From Hymenobacter sp. GOD-10R (GTDB taxonomy: Bacteria; Bacteroidota; Bacteroidia; Cytophagales; Hymenobacteraceae), in contig NZ_CP141184.1 in the NCBI RefSeq assembly GCF_035609205.1, positions 310,001 to 374,000 on the forward strand: a stretch of 64,000 nt of DNA, given 5' to 3'. The notes beneath the pieces are model-generated. The model searched no databases, was not told the origin of the DNA, and saw only the letters and a list, made by a program, of their open reading frames with translations. The position numbers were made by a program, and so were the translations under genes. This document shows, piece after piece, positions 35,921-47,550 of this stretch. Numbering within the stretch: the first letter of the stretch is position 1; every line of letters begins with the position of its first letter.

Positions 35921-38362
35921 ATGACAAATTTTTATCGTTGCTGGTTGGTACTTGTGGGAGTATTAGTCTTTGCTACTTTCTCGGCAAAAGCTCAGTATAC
36001 CTTCTCTAACACCAACTTAAATCCTTATAAGCAGAACTTCGACTCACTTGGGACGGGAACTGCTACTTTCAACAATAACTCAACTTTTCGGGGGATTTAT
36101 GCAACCGCAACTCTGACAGCATATCCTGGCGCGACCTTTCCACCTAGTGCTCTTAGCCCTAGCGATGGTTCTACTGGGACCGGTGCATGGTATCACTTTG
36201 GCTATACTGGAGATACTGATCGAGCATTTGGCGGTATTGCGGCCGGCACGGGTGCTACTGGGGTTGGCACCGGCTACATCGGAGTGCGTCTTAAGAATGG
36301 CACTAGCGGAGCAACCGCGGCCACGATCAAGAGCCTAGAAATTATGTATGCTATGGAGCAATGGTATAACTCCGGCATTAATACAGCCGCGCAGGTGAAG
36401 GTGGATTACCAGATCAGCACTACCCCTATAGTTTCTTTGACTAGTGGTACTTGGACTCCCATCAGTGCCCTCGGCGTTGACGCCCCCTCTACCACTACTC
36501 CCATTGCTCCACGCGACGGCAACTCTACTACAAACCGGCGTGTGTTGCGCAGCACACTTACTGCTGACATTCCGGTCAATGGTGAGATAATGATTCGTTG
36601 GTCGTACACATTCAACAGTACCACCAATGGTAATGGTTTGAGTATTGATGATGTGGTTATCACACCGCAAACAAACATCTTCTACTCCAAAGCCAATATA
36701 AATTTAAACTTAGATGCTCTTACTACTTGGGGTACGGCAACTGATGGTACCGGCACGCAACCTGCAAGCTTCTCGTTGCCCAACACAGTATACTATGTAC
36801 AAGGAAACACTACTACATCTGGCACCAGTAGCTCGAGTCGTATTAATGGAAGTGCGGCAGGTACTTGGACTGTAGATGGTGCAAACTCCCATATAGTTGT
36901 TGGAGTACCGGGATCGACTGTTTCCTCGCGTCTGTATCTTTTCAACGACGACGACATAAAAGGGGTAGTTGATGTGGAGAGTAATGGGGCCTTGGCTATT
37001 CAGCGCCCTACTTACGCATCTACACTTACCCTAGGTCGGCTTGCTAATACCAGCACGGTAGAATATTATACGACGGGTACCGACATAAACATAGCGCCTG
37101 GCTCTTATGGTAATTTAAAATTAACTGGCGGTGCTAATAAGAACTTAATTGGTAACGTGCTTGTGAACGGCACTCTCAGTTTTATAACAGCATCAGCTAC
37201 AAGCGGCGGAGTGACAGTGACTGCTGCTCCAAAATTGTACTTGGGTCCCTACAACCTTACCATACAGCGTGGAGGGCAGATTCAAGGTGCTAGCAATGCT
37301 GCTTTTGTAGTGACGAATGGTAAGGGACAACTCCGTCAAAGCGTAACCAATAGTGGTACGGATGTGCTGTTTCCAATCGGTAGCTCTGCTGCTAGCTATA
37401 CGCCGGCTTTACTACAACAACCTAGCAGCACAACAGCGCGCAATGAAGACGTATTCTCGGTCCGTGTGGCCGATGGCATGTATGCTCGCTATGATGCTTC
37501 AGAAACCGGCATAGGTACTGCTGTCACCAACCAGAACGTAAAGAAAACTTGGTTAGTGAGCGAAGAAGTACCAGGTAACTCTAATATCACAATGGGGTTG
37601 CAATGGAATAGCACAGACGAAATGGCTGATTTTGTCCGTAATAGCGCTTACGTATCGCATTATCTTGCTACAGGCTCATCAGCTTATTTCGACAAACCTA
37701 GCGAGGTACCCGGTATTGCGGCTGGCACTGTAGCTAGCAGCTACCGAGTGAATCGAGGAAGTATCACAAGCTTCTCGCCCTTCAGCGTGTCCTCCCGGCC
37801 AGATATGCCTTTGCCAGTAGAGTTGACGGCCTTCTCGGCGCGGCGCCTAGGTACTGCGGTCGTTTGCCGCTGGACCACGGCCAGCGAGAGAAACAGTGCT
37901 AAATTCATCGTTGAACGTAGCACTGATGGTCATTCTTTTCAAGCCATCGGGATGTTCGCTGCCGCTGGCACGAGCACTGCTGCGCGTTCTTACTCCTTCG
38001 CTGACCAACAACCGCTAACTACTACGGCCTACTACCGATTGCGTCAAATTGATGAAGATGCTACAGAGGCCTTCTCGCCAGTTGTAACGGTAGCTGGCTG
38101 CACGGAATGTCTTGCTAACAACGTGACAATAGCTCCAAACCCCAGTTCCGGCTTGTTTGAGCTTTATACTAATCTTGAGGCGGTTGTATTAGGCGGTACC
38201 GTTAGCAATACGCTTGGCAAGTCAGTGCTGACCATAAATCAAGAGGTGCCAGTTGGACCACAACGTACCTTACTTGATTTGACACAACAGCCCGCTGGCG
38301 TGTACCTCGTGCAACTACAAACAAGCAGCGGTAGTTTGGTACGGAAGATTGTAAAGCAGTAA
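35921..38362 (+). CDS. Secreted type IX secretion cargo protein
   Basis: An 813-residue exported protein. The signal peptide ends near AKAQ (residue 24) and the mature start resembles YTFSNTNLNPYKQNFDSL, common in Bacteroidota surface proteins. The body is Ser/Thr/Gly-rich and repetitive-looking beta structure. A fibronectin-like VELTAFSARRLGTAVVCRW segment near 632 precedes the C-terminal type A sorting domain (last about 80 residues: IAPNPSSG, LDLTQQPAGVYLVQL, KIVKQ), which directs export by T9SS. Function on the surface is unknown. The gene is more AT-rich than its neighbours. Confidence 0.88.
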   Translation: MTNFYRCWLVLVGVLVFATFSAKAQYTFSNTNLNPYKQNFDSLGTGTATFNNNSTFRGIYATATLTAYPGATFPPSALSPSDGSTGTGAWYHFGYTGDTDRAFGGIAAGTGATGVGTGYIGVRLKNGTSGATAATIKSLEIMYAMEQWYNSGINTAAQVKVDYQISTTPIVSLTSGTWTPISALGVDAPSTTTPIAPRDGNSTTNRRVLRSTLTADIPVNGEIMIRWSYTFNSTTNGNGLSIDDVVITPQTNIFYSKANINLNLDALTTWGTATDGTGTQPASFSLPNTVYYVQGNTTTSGTSSSSRINGSAAGTWTVDGANSHIVVGVPGSTVSSRLYLFNDDDIKGVVDVESNGALAIQRPTYASTLTLGRLANTSTVEYYTTGTDINIAPGSYGNLKLTGGANKNLIGNVLVNGTLSFITASATSGGVTVTAAPKLYLGPYNLTIQRGGQIQGASNAAFVVTNGKGQLRQSVTNSGTDVLFPIGSSAASYTPALLQQPSSTTARNEDVFSVRVADGMYARYDASETGIGTAVTNQNVKKTWLVSEEVPGNSNITMGLQWNSTDEMADFVRNSAYVSHYLATGSSAYFDKPSEVPGIAAGTVASSYRVNRGSITSFSPFSVSSRPDMPLPVELTAFSARRLGTAVVCRWTTASERNSAKFIVERSTDGHSFQAIGMFAAAGTSTAARSYSFADQQPLTTTAYYRLRQIDEDATEAFSPVVTVAGCTECLANNVTIAPNPSSGLFELYTNLEAVVLGGTVSNTLGKSVLTINQEVPVGPQRTLLDLTQQPAGVYLVQLQTSSGSLVRKIVKQ

Positions 38363-38984: not shown

Positions 38985-39548
38985 ATGTCACGCTTTGTCT
39001 TACCGAGCTTGTTCGTTGTGGCTGCTTTGAGTAGCCACCTTGCTCTAGCGCAGCAGCCTGCTGCTTCATCAACGCCGCAGGCTGCGGAACCCGCTACCTC
39101 CTCCACCAAACCCGATAATCCGACTACACCCGCATCTTCTTGGACCACTCCTGGTACTGGTAAAGAAGCTTCTGATGATGCTGCCTCGCGAATAGAGGGC
39201 GCGCATATTGCGCCAGGCTTCACGGCTGCTCCTCCCACGCGCGTGCGTTATGATTACCGAGGCCGCCCAATGGGCGCGCCACTGCGCCGGCCTACGGTAA
39301 ACTCGTCGGCTCCAGCTCTCTCGCCTGCTCCTGCTGCTCAGAATAGTGCTGCTACTAATTCGGCAGCAAACAGATCAGCCGGTGCAGCACCAACTGAAGC
39401 CACTCCAGCAGCGGAGCCCGCAACTCCCTCAACTTCTAACAGCTTGAAATCGTCGGCTCCTGCTGCTCCTAAGGCAACACCAGCAAAGAAAGCAGCCCCA
39501 AAGAAAAAACAGTCAGACGGCTGGGGCACTAATACCAGTGGTTGGTAA
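38985..39548 (+). CDS. Small secreted APG/DYxGRP-motif protein (A)
   Basis: A 187-residue exported, low-complexity protein rich in Ala, Pro, Ser and Thr, with a signal peptide ending near LAQ (residue 23). The one ordered-looking element is IAPGF...DYRGRP: APG at residues 76-78 and DYRGRP at 90-95. This 20-residue motif recurs with the same spacing in three other short secreted proteins downstream. The tail is basic (KKAAPKKK) and ends in two Trp-containing GW segments. I do not recognise the family. Confidence 0.7.
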   Translation: MSRFVLPSLFVVAALSSHLALAQQPAASSTPQAAEPATSSTKPDNPTTPASSWTTPGTGKEASDDAASRIEGAHIAPGFTAAPPTRVRYDYRGRPMGAPLRRPTVNSSAPALSPAPAAQNSAATNSAANRSAGAAPTEATPAAEPATPSTSNSLKSSAPAAPKATPAKKAAPKKKQSDGWGTNTSGW

Positions 39549-39655
39549 TAGGTTTATGATAACGTATACGAATGACTAAACAGTCGTTAACTCTGTTAGC
39601 CAGTTTATATGCGGCTGCGGCAAGAACAAGCCATCCGAAAATGGTGACGTTTTAA

Positions 39656-39696
39656 AACAAAGAAGCCCGCTGGATATCCAGCGGGCTTCTTTGTTT
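39656..39696. terminator. Terminator of tRNA-Asn
   Basis: Palindromic stem AACAAAGAAGCCCGCTGGAT with its complement. On the minus strand it is followed by a T-rich tract, right after the tRNA 3' end. Confidence 0.8.
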
Positions 39697-39699
39697 CTG

Positions 39700-39773
39700 C
39701 GCTCCCTCCTGGGCTCGAACCAGGGACCCTCTGATTAACAGTCAGATGCTCTAACCGGCTGAGCTAAGGAAGC
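39700..39773 (-). tRNA. tRNA-Asn (anticodon GTT)
   Basis: A 74-base cloverleaf on the minus strand. Acceptor GCTTCCT pairs with AGGGAGC, the D arm starts TAGCTCAG, the anticodon stem TCTGA/TCAGA encloses CTGTTAA, and the T arm is CCTGG-TTCGAGC-CCAGG. The anticodon GTT corresponds to + strand positions 39737-39739. The terminal CCA is not encoded. Confidence 0.95.
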
Positions 39774-39869
39774 GGTTATGGCGGCTTTTAGTAGCCGTTG
39801 CGGGTGCAATATTAAGACGGTGTTTTGCTTTTTGCAAGAGCTACACTGTATTTTATTTAATAAAAATAG

Positions 39870-40328
39870 CTAGTTGCTGATAGTAAGCAAGTTGCCGCTT
39901 AAAGAAGTTGCATACTGACGCAATGGATAACGCGAAGGCCCACCCTGGATCTGACCCTGCAAGCTAAATTGGGAGGTGCAGCAGGTGTCGCGAAAGAACA
40001 AGCGCGAAGGATCAATGCTTACCGTGGCGCAAGAACTAGTCGGCTGATACGGGCAGGTCCGGTCGAAAGCTAGGTAAGAACCAGCTTTTTGCCGCACCAC
40101 TATCAACCCCTTGGTTCCTTTCACACCACCATCCACGTACTGTACGCCGTTGTCGAAGCGCAGGGCCGTGTTCTGCTGGTCAAGCAAGCTTATGGTGGTC
40201 GTGAAAGCAATTATGGGTATCTGAGGCTGCACCTCCGAAGCAGAGTCGCCACCACAGGCTATTATACCTAGCATGCCAGTAAGTACGGTCGCTGCACTGA
40301 AGAAGCGTAAGCTGCTGGGTATACGCAT
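39870..40328 (-). CDS. Rieske-like lipoprotein lacking iron-sulfur ligands
   Basis: A 152-residue lipoprotein with the acylated cysteine at 25 (LGIIAC). The C-terminal half follows the Rieske outline: a first loop at TCPY (91-94), a second at CCTSQF (116-121), then LQGQIQGGPSRYPLRQY, the typical end with the proline loop. But the usual Cys-x-His and Cys-x-x-His ligands are changed: Tyr at 94 instead of His and no His in the second loop. It is therefore unlikely to hold a 2Fe-2S cluster. Surplus cysteines could form disulfides. The start at 40328 gives a proper signal. Confidence 0.75.
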   Translation of the reverse strand: MRIPSSLRFFSAATVLTGMLGIIACGGDSASEVQPQIPIIAFTTTISLLDQQNTALRFDNGVQYVDGGVKGTKGLIVVRQKAGSYLAFDRTCPYQPTSSCATVSIDPSRLFFRDTCCTSQFSLQGQIQGGPSRYPLRQYATSLSGNLLTISN

Positions 40329-40409
40329 GGTCTTATCTTGCTTTATAGGGCTGGGTAGCTTGGTGAGTGACAGTAGAGCAGGGAACATTCTACTGTCACT
40401 CACCACACG

Positions 40410-41456
40410 CTAACCTAGCTGTACTCCTTCGAACTGGCGTAGGAAGCGCATGTCGTTCTCCGTGAACAAACGCAAATCCTTGATCTGATATTTTAGCATG
40501 GCAATGCGTTCGATGCCCATGCCCCAGGCATAACCTGAGTACTGCTCAGGGTCGATACCGGATTGTTGGAGTACATTGGGGTCAACCATACCGCAACCAC
40601 CAATCTCAACCCAGCCGGTTTGCTTACAGATGTTGCAGCCTTTGCCCTTGCAGATCAGACAAGTGATGTCAATTTCGGCGCTAGGTTCGGTGAAAGGGAA
40701 AAACGACGGGCGGAAGCGGATTTGGATGTCTTGCCCGAACATTTCCTGCACGAAGTAGTACACCGTCTGCTTTAGATCAGCGAAGCTCACGCCCTCATCA
40801 ATGAAGAGTCCTTCTACTTGATGGAACATCATGTGAGCACGGGCCGAAATAGCTTCGTTGCGGTACACCCGCCCGGGCATGATGCTGCGAATAGGAGGCT
40901 TTTGGCTTTCCATTACGCGCACTTGCACGTTGCTGGTGTGCGTGCGCAAAAGCCAATCGTTGGTTTGGCCTGGCTCGCGGTGTACGAAGAACGTATCCTG
41001 CATGTCGCGCGCCGGGTGATTTTCGGGGAAATTTAGCGCCGTGAAGTTATGCCAATCGTCTTCAATTTCGGGCCCTTCGGCTACGTTGAAACCAATGCGC
41101 GAGAAAGTGCGCACCATTTCTTCGCGTACTAAGCTCAAGGGGTGCCGGGTACCTAGGGCATTGGGCGCTGGGGGTAACGTGTAGTCGAAGGTTGCATCGG
41201 CAGGCGCATTTTGAGCGGCGGCTTCTACTTCCTGCTGGCGCTGCGTAAACTTCTCTAGGGCTAACTGCTTAAGCTGGTTGAGCTCCTGACCCACGGCACG
41301 GCGCTGCTCCTGCGGCACTGTTTTTAGTTGGTCAAACAGGTCGGCTAGCTGACCTTTACGACCTGTGAAGGCGATTCGAAACTGCTCCAGCTGTTCGGGA
41401 GCTGTAAGATCGTAGGCTTCGATTTCGGCGCGTAGCCGATTGATATTCTCCTGCAT
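40410..41456 (-). CDS. pheS: Phenylalanine-tRNA ligase alpha subunit
   Basis: Charges tRNA-Phe together with the beta subunit (not in the window). The 348-residue protein has the N-terminal coiled-coil arm (about residues 1-85), then the class II core: motif 2-like RTHTSNVQVRVM...IMPGRVYRNE, and motif 3 at GYAWGMGIERIAML. A four-cysteine CLICKGKGCNIC element, common in bacterial PheS, is present. The ATG at 41456 was chosen over an upstream frame; the promoter element directly before it supports this. Confidence 0.95.
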   Translation of the reverse strand: MQENINRLRAEIEAYDLTAPEQLEQFRIAFTGRKGQLADLFDQLKTVPQEQRRAVGQELNQLKQLALEKFTQRQQEVEAAAQNAPADATFDYTLPPAPNALGTRHPLSLVREEMVRTFSRIGFNVAEGPEIEDDWHNFTALNFPENHPARDMQDTFFVHREPGQTNDWLLRTHTSNVQVRVMESQKPPIRSIMPGRVYRNEAISARAHMMFHQVEGLFIDEGVSFADLKQTVYYFVQEMFGQDIQIRFRPSFFPFTEPSAEIDITCLICKGKGCNICKQTGWVEIGGCGMVDPNVLQQSGIDPEQYSGYAWGMGIERIAMLKYQIKDLRLFTENDMRFLRQFEGVQLG

Positions 41457-41463
41457 AATAGCG

Positions 41464-41471
41464 CAAAGGTA
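41464..41471 (-). promoter_or_regulatory. Probable -7 promoter element of pheS
   Basis: The minus strand reads TACCTTTG, a full TAnnTTTG match, ending only seven bases before the pheS ATG. If it is used, the mRNA would have almost no leader. Confidence 0.5.
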
Positions 41472-41722
41472 CGGCGTTGCCGACAACTGATAACAGCCCC
41501 GGCACATGTTGAATTTGGGACTTTCTAGTGCAAAATGGGGAATTGTTTATCCTATATCCGGCTAGGCCTGTCGAGGTCAGTAGGAGAATTTTAGGATTTG
41601 GTATGATTGATGCAATACGATGAGCATCCGAATGGCCGTTACTGACGAGAGCCGGCCTTCGTTATTTGTCTTTTTTACGGCGTACTCCTGCATCTATTTC
41701 CACACCCATTCAGTCACTCACC

Positions 41723-42196
41723 ATGCCTCGTTTTCTGTTCCCCGCATTCTTGTTAGGTGCTTTGCTAAGTGCCTCTACTATTACTCAAGCACAATCTGAT
41801 ACTCGGACTAATACCACTGCCGTCGACCCATGGGCAGCTACTGATGCAGTAGCTGATGCGCCGCAATACGCTACGGGCTGGAGTAGCGCGCCAGGGATGA
41901 GTCTGAGCTTGCACCAGCGCCCAACCACCGATTACCGGGGCCGTCCGCTTAAGCAGCAAGCGAAAGTTAAGCGTGTTTCAGTAGATGATCTAGCTATCGT
42001 TGATGCCAACGATGACCCCATGATGCACAGTTCCGGCGTCATGATTGCCCCTGGCATGAACACGGCGCCTTACCGTGGCGTGAGCACCGACTACAACGGC
42101 CGGCCGCTACGCAAGTCAACGCATACCAGTTCTACTATAGGTGCCAAGATGGCGAAGGCAGCGCCTGTTGCTGTTGTGCCCTCAACAACTTGGTAG
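41723..42196 (+). CDS. Small secreted APG/DYxGRP-motif protein (B, two motifs)
   Basis: A 157-residue exported protein with a signal peptide ending near TQAQ (residue 24). It carries the family motif twice: APG at 56-58 with DYRGRP at 70-75, and APG at 109-111 with DYNGRP at 123-128. In both the glycine of APG and the Asp of DY are twelve positions apart. The region between is polar and acidic (VDDLAIVDANDD). The ATG at 41723 fits the signal peptide; an earlier in-frame TTG at 41666 does not. Three such genes follow one another in this direction. Confidence 0.72.
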   Translation: MPRFLFPAFLLGALLSASTITQAQSDTRTNTTAVDPWAATDAVADAPQYATGWSSAPGMSLSLHQRPTTDYRGRPLKQQAKVKRVSVDDLAIVDANDDPMMHSSGVMIAPGMNTAPYRGVSTDYNGRPLRKSTHTSSTIGAKMAKAAPVAVVPSTTW

Positions 42197-42264
42197 AACA
42201 AGCCTCAAGCTAGAGTCGGCATTATTATCGTAAGGCAAATAGTAGTCACTCTACTTTTCCTACG

Positions 42265-42618
42265 ATGCGCCTCCCTTTACTCCTCGTTTCGATGCTTGTG
42301 CTAACCGCATCTTCCGTGTTAGCGCAACAAACTCGCCGCACAGCCAACGGCTATCATCATACGCAGAATGCAAAAGCCAAAGCTCGTTCGGGGGCTTATG
42401 CCCGCTACGACCGATCAGGTCGTCGCAACGAAGATAATCTGAAGCTAGCTCCTGGCTTGCGTCTGAACATGCCTAGCCCGCCTACTACCGACTATATGGG
42501 GCGGCCACTGAAGAAGAAAACAGCTCCTGTTGCGACGGGTGCAACTAGTCTTTCAGCCAATCAGTCAGCTAAAGCAGCTACGAAGCCGACGAAGTCAGCG
42601 AAGCGGCAAGCACGATAA
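42265..42618 (+). CDS. Small secreted APG/DYxGRP-motif protein (C)
   Basis: A 117-residue exported, strongly basic protein with a signal peptide ending near VLAQ (residue 21). APG is at 62-64 and DYMGRP at 76-81, followed by LKKK. A second element, YDRSGRR at 48-54, precedes the motif; a similar YDK/FDK-x-G element recurs in the proteins at 46780 and 47224. The tail is rich in Lys, Ala and Thr. It lies 68 bases after protein B in the same direction. No enzyme signature is present. Confidence 0.7.
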   Translation: MRLPLLLVSMLVLTASSVLAQQTRRTANGYHHTQNAKAKARSGAYARYDRSGRRNEDNLKLAPGLRLNMPSPPTTDYMGRPLKKKTAPVATGATSLSANQSAKAATKPTKSAKRQAR

Positions 42619-42689
42619 GCGCGGAACAACAGATGGTCGAAGCAGCCGTTTCTGCGTATAGGATTTAACACGCTCACGGTTAAATAACT

Positions 42690-43058
42690 ATGTCACGGAT
42701 TGCTTTTGTGGTGCTGCTAAGTGCCGCGCTGCTGACTACTACGGCCGTTACGGCGCAAACGCGCACGAATGCGCCAGCAGGTAAGAAAACAGGATCGAGC
42801 GGCAAGGTATACCCGGCACAACCAGCTCGCACGTCCACTAAGCCCACCGCAGGAGACGGCAATACGGCCTCACCTGCTACCGACCCCAAGATGGAGCCAT
42901 TAATGGAAAGCCAAGGTGAGTCGGTAGCACCGGGCATGAGCGGGGCGCCACCCACACGGGTTACAACCGACTACGAAGGTCGCCCAGAGAAAAAAACGAC
43001 GAATAGTTCTACGTTATCGTCGCCTAAGAGCCCGGCTGCCCAGCCAAAAACGCAGTAG
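42690..43058 (+). CDS. Small secreted APG/DYxGRP-motif protein (D)
   Basis: A 122-residue exported protein with a signal peptide ending near VTAQ (residue 23). Apart from the motif it is low in complexity, with Thr/Ala/Pro/Lys-rich flanks. APG is at 80-82 and DYEGRP at 94-99, followed by EKKT. The interior PPTRV is shared word for word with protein A, which supports common descent. It lies 71 bases after protein C and is followed by a terminator. Confidence 0.7.
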   Translation: MSRIAFVVLLSAALLTTTAVTAQTRTNAPAGKKTGSSGKVYPAQPARTSTKPTAGDGNTASPATDPKMEPLMESQGESVAPGMSGAPPTRVTTDYEGRPEKKTTNSSTLSSPKSPAAQPKTQ

Positions 43059-43082: not shown

Positions 43083-43118
43083 GAGAGCCCACCGATACAT
43101 CAATCGGTGGGCTCTTTT
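43083..43118. terminator. Terminator between convergent genes
   Basis: Stem GAGCCCACCGAT/ATCGGTGGGCTC (43085-43096 and 43103-43114) followed by TTTTA. It ends the APG-motif gene run and faces the M16 protease gene. Confidence 0.85.
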
Positions 43119-43134: not shown

Positions 43135-44418
43135 CTACTCGGCTTCTGTGCCGACAGTTGTGAGTTCTTCTACTACTTCTTTTGGTTGAGCACGATAATA
43201 CAGAGTCGTGCTATTCTCAGGGCGTAGCACTTCTTGCGCCGCAGCTAACACAGCAGCTGGCGTAATAGCCTGTATACGGGCGCTTTCCTGGTTCACTAGG
43301 TTAGCGTCGCCCATGAGTTTGCTGTAAGCTAGGTTCATAGCTCGGTTCAGCAACTCAATTTCTCCAAATACAATGCTGGCCTCAGCCTGGTTCTTTACCT
43401 TTTCCAGTTCTTCGGCAGCCACTTCCGTGGTGCGTAGCTCCGCCAGAATTTCTTCGACGGCAGCATCTGCCTCTTCTGGCGTTACGCCGGCATTGAGCTT
43501 TCCGCTGATCACCAGCAAGCCGGGTTCTAAAGAGCCGGTGCAGGAAGCAGAAACGTTGTTGAACAATGGTCGTTCTTTCACCAAGCGCTGGTATAAGCGC
43601 GACGACTTGCCTCGGCCTAGCACGTCGCCAAGCAAATCGACGGGGTAATATGCCTCATCAGCGCGGCCGGGCATGTGATACACTTTGTAGAACGCCGTTA
43701 CGGGCACATCAGCCGCCACATCAAGATGACGCGCCTGCGTTTGACGCGGCTCAGTAGGCAGGTTGCGGTCGTAGTGTGTTCCGCTTGGAATTGGCTCAAA
43801 CCACTTTTCGGCTAGGCGTTTTACTTCGGCCACGGGCACCGCACCAGCTACGACCAGGATGGCGTTGGCGGGTGAGTAGTGCTTTGCGAAAAAAGCGCGT
43901 ACGTCGTCCATCACCGCGTTTTCGATGTGGCTTACTTCCTTGCCAATGGTAGCCCAGTTGTAGGGATGTACTTGATAGGCAAGAGGACGCAGCTTCAACC
44001 ATACGTCACCGTAGGGCTGGTTAAGGTAGTTCTGCTTAAATTCTTCCACAACCACCTTGCGCTGCACTTCCAAACCCTGCTCCGAAAAAGCTAGGCTCAG
44101 CATCCGGTCCGATTCAAGCCAGAAGCCTGTTTCGATGTTGGCGGCGGGCACAGTCAGGTAGTAGTTGGTGATATCTGGCGAGGTAAAGGCGTTGTTTTCG
44201 CCACCGACGCGCTGCAAAGGCTCGTCGTAATTAGGTATGTTGACGGAGCCCGAAAACATCAGGTGCTCAAACAAGTGCGCGAAACCTGTGTGGTGCGGGT
44301 CTTCGTCGCGCGAGCCCACATTGTAAAGGATATTGAGCACGGCCATCGGCGTGGTGTGGTCCTCGTGGACGATGCAGCGTAGACCGTTGGCTAGGGTAAA
44401 TTCTTCGAAGTGAATCAT
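43135..44418 (-). CDS. M16 family zinc peptidase
   Basis: A 427-residue pitrilysin-type metallopeptidase, the half-size bacterial form of the mitochondrial processing peptidase and insulinase family. The inverted zinc motif HLFEH is at 48-52, with a downstream Glu in KVVVEEF as third ligand. A second, non-catalytic domain follows (about residues 220-420), with the typical YHMPGRADEAYYPVDLL linker. No signal peptide is seen, so it is likely to be cytoplasmic. It is convergent with the APG-motif cluster. Confidence 0.93.
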   Translation of the reverse strand: MIHFEEFTLANGLRCIVHEDHTTPMAVLNILYNVGSRDEDPHHTGFAHLFEHLMFSGSVNIPNYDEPLQRVGGENNAFTSPDITNYYLTVPAANIETGFWLESDRMLSLAFSEQGLEVQRKVVVEEFKQNYLNQPYGDVWLKLRPLAYQVHPYNWATIGKEVSHIENAVMDDVRAFFAKHYSPANAILVVAGAVPVAEVKRLAEKWFEPIPSGTHYDRNLPTEPRQTQARHLDVAADVPVTAFYKVYHMPGRADEAYYPVDLLGDVLGRGKSSRLYQRLVKERPLFNNVSASCTGSLEPGLLVISGKLNAGVTPEEADAAVEEILAELRTTEVAAEELEKVKNQAEASIVFGEIELLNRAMNLAYSKLMGDANLVNQESARIQAITPAAVLAAAQEVLRPENSTTLYYRAQPKEVVEELTTVGTEAE

Positions 44419-46779: not shown

Positions 46780-47088
46780 ATGATTACCTCTTTCCTGTGT
46801 AAAGCACGGACTGCCGTGTGGTTGTTGGTGCTGAGCTGCTTGTTGACGACGGCTTGCCACTCGCACCGTATTCCGAACCCAACGGGGCCACCGCAGCCGA
46901 AAAAGGTGAAAGCCAGCAAGACCGCCGATGCGACTGAAACTGCTGATGGATCAACGGCTACTGCCCCACCACCTCAGCACAATAGCTACGACAAAAATGG
47001 CCTCCTGAAAAAGCCTAAGTATGAGCGTCGGCGCGTGAAGCGGAAGATAGGACAGCGCAAGTTCCTGGGTATTGTTCTGCCCTTCTAA
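46780..47088 (+). CDS. Small basic lipoprotein
   Basis: A 102-residue lipoprotein. The signal ends LLTTAC, with the acylated cysteine near position 26. A Pro/Thr/Ala-rich linker follows, then NSYDKNGLLKKPKYERRR and a basic C-terminus. The YDKNG element resembles YDRSG in the APG-motif protein C and FDKTG in the next gene, but the APG/DYxGRP motif itself is absent. No named domain. A hairpin follows the stop. Confidence 0.65.
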   Translation: MITSFLCKARTAVWLLVLSCLLTTACHSHRIPNPTGPPQPKKVKASKTADATETADGSTATAPPPQHNSYDKNGLLKKPKYERRRVKRKIGQRKFLGIVLPF

Positions 47089-47223: not shown

Positions 47224-47550
47224 ATGCATCGTATCATCGCACTTGCCTTTCTGTTGCTTCTCATCGGTTACGCGCAACCAGCGGCGGCGCAGACAAAGGA
47301 GATAAGTCCGGCGAAGCTACGAGCGGCTAATCGCCGTTCTTTACGCGAAGCACGCCAGTATCCGGCCCCGGCGGCCTACAAGGATTCGCACTTGGCCGTG
47401 AGCCGCGCTGACTTACGACGCGGAGAAGGCGGGCAGACGGGGCAACCCAACGATGGGCGCGACAGTTATAAATTCGATAAGACGGGCACGGCGCGCGTGA
47501 GCGAACCAATTGCGCCCGGGCTGCGTCCTCGCAAGAAGAAAAAGGAATAA
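47224..47550 (+). CDS. Small secreted basic protein with partial APG motif
   Basis: A 108-residue exported protein with a signal peptide ending near AAAQ (residue 23). Toward the end it reads SYKFDKTGTARVSEP-IAPGL-RPRKKKK, so it has FDKTG and IAPGL as in the motif family, but it stops before a DYxGRP half. This makes it a possible truncated or distant member. The ATG at 47224 fits the signal peptide better than GTG at 47194. The bacillithiol-type gene follows 20 bases later. Confidence 0.65.
   Translation: MHRIIALAFLLLLIGYAQPAAAQTKEISPAKLRAANRRSLREARQYPAPAAYKDSHLAVSRADLRRGEGGQTGQPNDGRDSYKFDKTGTARVSEPIAPGLRPRKKKKE

Follow-up and report, generated by a model that had tools for sequence, protein, structure and literature searches.

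A conserved motif shared by small exported proteins at a single Hymenobacter locus

Why do several small exported proteins that otherwise differ from one another keep one short sequence element? The question arises in Hymenobacter sp. GOD-10R, in a stretch of 64,000 nucleotides (NZ_CP141184.1, positions 310,001 to 374,000; the whole stretch is referred to as the window). A first-pass annotation described in the window a motif, APG-[MFL]-x(10)-DYxGRP, that occurs five times in four short proteins. All of the 21-residue stretches translate as given there and fit the pattern, and the four proteins are exported, basic and low in complexity. The distance from the glycine of APG to the aspartate of DY is 12 in each of the five copies, basic residues often follow GRP, and the word PPTRV, reported as recurring, is present in two copies (those of the 38985 and 42690 genes). 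Three of the genes (41723, 42265, and 42690) are in tandem, separated by gaps of ~70 bases. The usual order at related loci is gene 1 (often with two motifs), gene 2, and gene 3, and the window proteins are named after these types (Table 1).

The same annotation held that the motif does not arise by chance, and this is borne out by a profile built from other genomes. A hidden Markov model (HMM) was built from 105 different 27-mers, all of them taken from other genomes; the two nearest relatives contributed no loci, and one peptide that equals a window copy was removed. Searched against the 1241 six-frame stop-to-stop stretches of the window, the HMM recovers all five copies (independent E-values 9e-17, 2.4e-17, 8.4e-15, 1.7e-12, and 4.5e-11); the next best stretch has a value of 1.6. 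Beyond these five, the whole 7.5-Mb genome yields three matches, all partial (E 0.7–3.5) and none of them credible.

Variation within the motif is seen in 226 distinct copies, drawn from loci fetched by a match and hence neither random nor independent. The collecting pattern demanded APG and D[YWF]xG[RKH]; the identities of the anchors are partly fixed by this pattern and are given no weight here. A spacing of 12 is seen in 209 copies, of 13 in 14, and of 11 in 3, so the strict spacing first proposed is the rule but has exceptions. The copies with spacing 13 all come from one group of genomes of the window's own genus, mostly as APGMPxNQVxHGV[ST]TDY, and those with spacing 11 come from the sister genus. 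The proposed 20-residue unit likewise stands in part: the anchors are shared, but some genes have a longer conserved unit, and the interior is not random but maintained gene by gene. Interior identity is 0.51–0.74 within a gene type and 0.14–0.41 between types, where gene types are assigned with simple patterns, as they also are in the comparisons of profiles, C-termini, and positions below.

Gene 2 provides the clearest view of selection. In an alignment of 48 members, LAPG, R, TDYMGRP, and K are invariant and the remainder drifts. Across 15 orthologues, the ratio of nonsynonymous to synonymous proportions of differences (pN/pS) is 0.17 in the motif, compared with 0.61 in the signal peptide, 0.60 in the N-terminal linker, and 0.68 in the tail. 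Synonymous differences are plentiful inside the motif (pS 0.64, versus 0.67–0.76 elsewhere), indicating that the constraint is mainly on the protein. The gene 2 motif is thus under strong protein-level selection. In gene 1 (25 orthologues), pN/pS is 0.43 and 0.28 in the two motifs, 0.34 in the lead-in DDPMMxSSGVM, 0.44 in the signal peptide, and 0.65–0.75 in the linker, spacer, and tail. Both the alignments and the ratios place the motif above its flanks. A short conserved motif within fast-changing sequence is found, and the proteins therefore form a real family.

Comparison of profiles separates the motif from the rest of the chain. The gene 2 profile matches those of gene 1 and gene 3 over the motif alone (34 columns, E 4e-13; 30 columns, E 3e-12). 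Between gene 1 and gene 3 the match extends across 125 columns, the signal peptide among them, indicating that the likeness of these two goes beyond the motif. The position of the motif within the proteins varies. At least 22 of 31 gene 1 open reading frames (ORFs) and 24 of 32 gene 3 ORFs end in Trp; 25 of 37 gene 2 ORFs have a basic C-terminus. By eye, many members carry a second small element, TTLS or TSLS, some distance after GRP.

Structure prediction points to the same segment. The AlphaFold2 model of gene 2 (48 rows) has a mean predicted local distance difference test score (pLDDT) of 63 and a predicted template modelling score (pTM) of 0.22, and the blocks covering residues 61–90, which hold the motif, have means of 75, 89, and 72. 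DSSP marks T75 and P81 in this model. In the gene 1 model (25 rows; mean pLDDT 56, pTM 0.15), the two best blocks (70 and 75) cover the two TDYxGRP segments, and DSSP marks residues 69/75 and 122/128, the Thr and Pro that flank DYxGR, as in gene 2. On our own reading, the two marked residues would pair with each other. Three copies in two models are thus predicted to share a small loop around DYxGR in a chain that is otherwise poorly shaped.

The start of each protein is consistent with export. The start codon is ATG in the ORFs 38985–39548, 42265–42618, and 42690–43058. The 41723 protein has an ATG inside an ORF that a TTG opens at 41666, and this ATG fits as the start because a signal-peptide-like stretch comes next. 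By eye, Gln occupies position +1 after the likely signal peptide in all four window proteins, and A20-Q21 is invariant in all 15 gene 2 orthologues. The mature parts of the four proteins contain no Cys, so that a lipobox is absent from them, and their computed charge is positive (the mature 41723 protein was cut one residue early for both computations). Two papers describe a Q-rule for Bacteroidetes, by which Gln follows the signal peptidase I cleavage site (PMC5837995, PMC10653852). Signal peptides followed by Gln, the lack of Cys, the positive mature charge, and this rule together argue for Sec export and cleavage by signal peptidase I.

The first-pass annotation knew of no described family with this motif, and we find none. 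In Pfam and NCBIfam, none of the four window proteins reaches a cut-off and the motif is left uncovered; PDB searches return chance-level matches (E 0.18 and worse); and no paper describing the family was found among the matches listed in open-licence papers. The type IX sorting domain Por_Secre_tail has no match in the four window proteins. PF21827 (New_glue) was rejected: the 38985 protein reaches 14.3 bits, against a Pfam cut-off of 31, over residues 11–65, ahead of the motif. Four of the 48 gene 2 members fall below E 10 with this model (best E 9.2e-6). Three members that were rescanned reach 20.2–25.8 bits over residues 1–38 to 1–45, that is, over the signal peptide and a Thr/Lys run before the motif, and a precomputed PF21827 label on 2 of the 120 listed homologues concerns two of these three. 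The D-x-x-G-R turn of the motif resembles the YDxxGR turn of RHS/YD repeats, but the motif proteins differ in having at most two copies each and no large repeat protein, and neither the four window proteins nor the 48 gene 2 members match these repeats in Pfam. Mimicry of a TonB-dependent receptor was also rejected. A 1075-codon ORF of the same genome, which we take to encode a SusC-type receptor, contains the strand RVNYDYKGRYLL, whose likeness to RVRYDYRGRP is at chance level (E 2.0) and which differs in belonging to a large protein without APG. Matches in 4 of 29 genomes, in ORFs of length 1067–1085 similar to the receptor frame (E 0.14–0.17), are likewise not above chance.

The family is widespread in its own genus and narrowly distributed beyond it. 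With a five-copy profile at E 0.1, 72 of 101 own-genus genomes match, counting that of the window. With a 25-copy profile at E 0.01, 90 of 204 genomes of the taxonomic family match (94 of the non-matching ones are not itemised). They fall into two of six genera: the own genus supplies 82 and g6 the other 8; g6 is probably the genus of Solirubrum plus several species still labelled Hymenobacter. In a sample of the phylum at E 0.01, 8 of 395 genomes match, and the convincing ones are three of the own genus; the other five matches are partial (E 0.002–0.009, two in frames with a stop) and are not counted as distant occurrences. Gene 2 relatives in 37 loci of named genomes are all labelled Hymenobacter except one Solirubrum puertoriconensis. 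The gene 2 profile finds 150 matches among 5.8 billion proteins, and the organisms named among the best 120 of these 150 are Hymenobacter except one labelled Microvirga sp. STR05. The 42690 gene has four relatives besides itself among the matches listed in the global search.

The family is also bound to one place. In the window and 20 fetched loci, which come from two genera and were picked for having a motif match, tblastn places motif copies between a gene that we take to be pheS and an M16 peptidase gene in 21 of 21 cases. The window has a gene 3 copy beyond pheS (38985), as do two of the 20 fetched loci, L114 and L117. Loci L125, L126, L127, and L131 hold a single full motif copy; in all of them but L125, an eroded relative is or may be present alongside. 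Such relatives also occur by themselves. Upstream of pheS we checked 27 genomes, among them 19 own-genus genomes without a credible match, which are only part of the non-matching ones; one of them (G111) has only a partial match (E 0.0046, in a frame with a stop). Eroded relatives lie within 1.5 kb upstream of pheS in 18 of the 19; in the remaining genome, the fetched stretch is too short and the contig apparently ends there. They take the form ...SVAPGAPVMMRGGR... with C-terminal GW, or YAAPGMPVNVDNPKKVGSYNGPAPAR...TTLTPR, and retain APG only or, in some, APG...Y-x-G. The 8 genomes of g4 and g5 have no such gene among divergent ORFs of at least 75 residues within 1.5 kb upstream of pheS. The profile of one eroded type finds 284 matches, and the organisms named among the 120 listed are Hymenobacter. 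In profile comparison, gene 2 and gene 1 are linked to the eroded type divB at the motif (89% and 48%), and the links of divA run over the signal peptide and an N-terminal Trp-Gly stretch; of the controls, the unrelated F9 reaches 46–87% via signal peptides and F6 0.6–3.7%. This comparison is only partly convincing, and kinship of the eroded relatives therefore rests jointly on place, signal peptide, APG, and C-terminal pattern.

Table 1 Features of the locus in the window.
Feature	Position	Strand	Remarks
gene 3-type protein, 187 aa	38985..39548	+	signal peptide, single motif, Ala/Pro/Lys-rich chain, C-terminus SDGWGTNTSGW
motif copy 1, APGFTAAPPTRVRYDYRGRP	39210..39269	+	translation and profile match
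C-terminal SDGWGTNTSGW of the 38985 protein	39513..39545	+	many orthologues end KKADDGWGSGGSGW or similar
pheS (presumed)	40410..41507	-	constant neighbour on one side
gene 1-type protein, 157 aa from ATG	41723..42196	+	two motifs, C-terminal Trp
motif copy 2, APGMSLSLHQRPTTDYRGRP	41888..41947	+	translation and profile match
lead-in DDPMMHSSGVM ahead of motif copy 3	42011..42043	+	conserved; pN/pS 0.34 across the 14 residues ending there
motif copy 3, APGMNTAPYRGVSTDYNGRP	42047..42106	+	translation and profile match
gene 2-type protein, 117 aa	42265..42618	+	single motif; strongly basic, mature charge about +17
motif copy 4, APGLRLNMPSPPTTDYMGRP	42448..42507	+	near-invariant across orthologues; top-confidence part of the gene 2 model
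extra gene after gene 2, 122 aa	42690..43058	+	single motif; C-terminus TQ
motif copy 5, APGMSGAPPTRVTTDYEGRP	42927..42986	+	translation and profile match
terminator-like hairpin, 14 pairs	43083..43116	+	separates the tandem genes from the M16 gene, which is convergent with them
M16 (insulinase-family) peptidase gene	43135..44418	-	constant neighbour opposite pheS; by eye, no signal peptide

Shared anchors and gene-specific interiors in freely evolving chains are the pattern of a docking motif. We therefore propose, with a probability of about 0.45, that these secreted, disordered, basic proteins dock through the shared linear motif on one family of partners in the envelope or outside the cell. 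The chains are probably intrinsically disordered. After Sec export and cleavage before Gln, the motif would serve as a pre-shaped docking element for a folded partner that the proteins have in common and that would reside in the periplasm, the outer membrane, or the extracellular matrix. APG and DYxGRP would make the common contact, the gene-specific interior would tune the partner or site that is bound, and the Ala/Pro/Lys-rich chains with their Trp or basic C-termini would act as spacers that hold anionic polymers of the envelope or matrix. Linear docking motifs of disordered proteins share with this one a short conserved peptide, near-invariant anchors, freely evolving disordered surroundings, and occurrence in several copies and proteins. 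The present case differs in that the proteins are exported and from Bacteroidota, the motif is ~20–25 residues long with gene-specific interiors, and the partner is putative. A more doubtful extension is a motif-addressed envelope assembly, so far in Hymenobacter and its sister genus only, in which the shared loop would dock on one receptor family and the interiors would be an address that orders the proteins on the surface or in the matrix.

Several observations weigh against docking. In gene 1, the constraint on the first motif does not exceed that on the signal peptide. In four close pairs of gene 2, pS is lower in the motif (0.26–0.68) than outside (0.50–0.75), and some constraint at the level of DNA or codons may therefore remain. 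The APG half of the gene 1 motifs is not confidently shaped (blocks of 58–61), and conservation alone can raise pLDDT. Richness in Ala, Pro, and Lys may be a general feature of proteins in these genomes. Some members of the genus lack DYxGRP and keep only APG or APG...YxG, indicating that the full contact is dispensable there. Finally, pheS and the M16 peptidase gene as neighbours offer no functional hint.

Among the ligand, processing site, and assembly tag suggested by the first-pass annotation, a docking ligand fits best, but sequence does not decide among the three. We consider it unlikely that the proteins instead assemble by themselves, with DYxGR loops associating mutually into an extracellular network with acidic polysaccharide and no separate receptor. 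Such a matrix would explain why one locus supplies several motif proteins per genome, one of them with two copies, and accords with the Ala-, Pro-, Lys-, and Thr-rich composition, the conserved Tyr and Trp, and the interiors that differ between genes; it fits poorly with the four loci that hold a single full copy and with the two loops left unpacked in the gene 1 model (pTM 0.15), although a single-chain model is no test of assembly. Less probable still is a processing or sorting site, where an envelope protease or sorting enzyme would cut at or after GRP and the basic residues and free peptides. The basic residues often next to GRP, the low-complexity flanks that resemble pro-regions, and the M16 peptidase gene adjoining in all 21 motif-bearing loci speak for cleavage, but a conserved unit of 20–25 residues with gene-specific conserved interiors is long for a cleavage site, the motif does not keep one position among the proteins, and the M16 protein should not meet exported proteins, because no signal peptide is seen in it by eye.

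The core of the AT-hook is RGRP, and the GRP of the motif, often followed by basic residues, resembles it. It is nevertheless very unlikely that GRP and the following lysines grip extracellular DNA or acidic polysaccharide in the manner of an AT-hook. The strongly basic gene 2 protein, the K/R that often follows GRP, and the Lys/Ala/Pro-rich tails would suit a polyanion binder, but the first Arg is unconserved (R precedes G in at most 52 of the 209 copies with spacing 12; the others have M, W, N, H, Q, E, or D), the AT-hook model matches neither the 48 gene 2 members (E up to 10) nor the four window proteins (E up to 1), and APG, the 12-residue spacing, the interior, and the export of the proteins set the motif apart and are left unexplained. 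We regard as most improbable that the motif has no present function and is residual similarity after duplication in a lineage-specific family of fast-evolving genes. The restricted distribution, and a DYxGRP that is eroded in some members of the genus, would be expected in that case, but the selection test disfavours it, as the gene 2 motif has a pN/pS of 0.17 while the same proteins change freely elsewhere.

Around the docking candidates lie other genes with recurrent relatives in the 21 loci. A tRNA-Asn (GTT; 39699–39773, − strand) lies beside the displaced gene 3, and we speculate that it was the site of the rearrangement that moved this gene. Upstream of the 38985 gene, the + strand gene at 35921–38362 encodes a protein with a Por_Secre_tail match (27.8 bits, against a cut-off of 27), which is likely to be a substrate of type IX secretion; its relatives are grouped in 5 of 21 loci. 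A putative lipoprotein (39870–40406, − strand) has no Pfam match, and its relatives are grouped in 14 of 21 loci; its conserved cysteines, which in the window read CPY...C...CC.SQF, may be reminiscent of a Rieske-like protein. A small protein at 46780–47088 (+ strand) has a lipobox-like cysteine and a C-terminal SYDKNGLLKKPKYERRRVKRKIGQRKFLGI, relatives grouped in 13 of 21 loci, and no Pfam match; it contains YDKNGLLKKPK, but the APG pair is absent and it was rejected as a family member. The small exported protein at 47224–47550 (+ strand) has a largely conserved DGRDSYKFDKTGTARVSEP, relatives grouped in 10 of 21 loci, and no Pfam match; it ends IAPGLRPRKKKKE and was likewise rejected, APG being retained in only 3 of 10 related ORFs. 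The region holds 9 terminator-like sites, versus 5.1 expected, and the hairpin in Table 1 has the longest stem. A search of the window with a Bacteroidetes-type promoter consensus found no match.

The protein family and its motif appear to be undescribed; the principle, an exported and disordered protein that carries a linear motif, varies a known theme. "Hypothetical proteins" that are fixed at one locus through much of an environmental genus become one family whose binding element is defined and testable. A partner search could use the near-invariant 25-residue gene 2 peptide directly as bait, and the natural spacing variants (11, 12, and 13) together with the eroded relatives make up a ready-made structure–function series.

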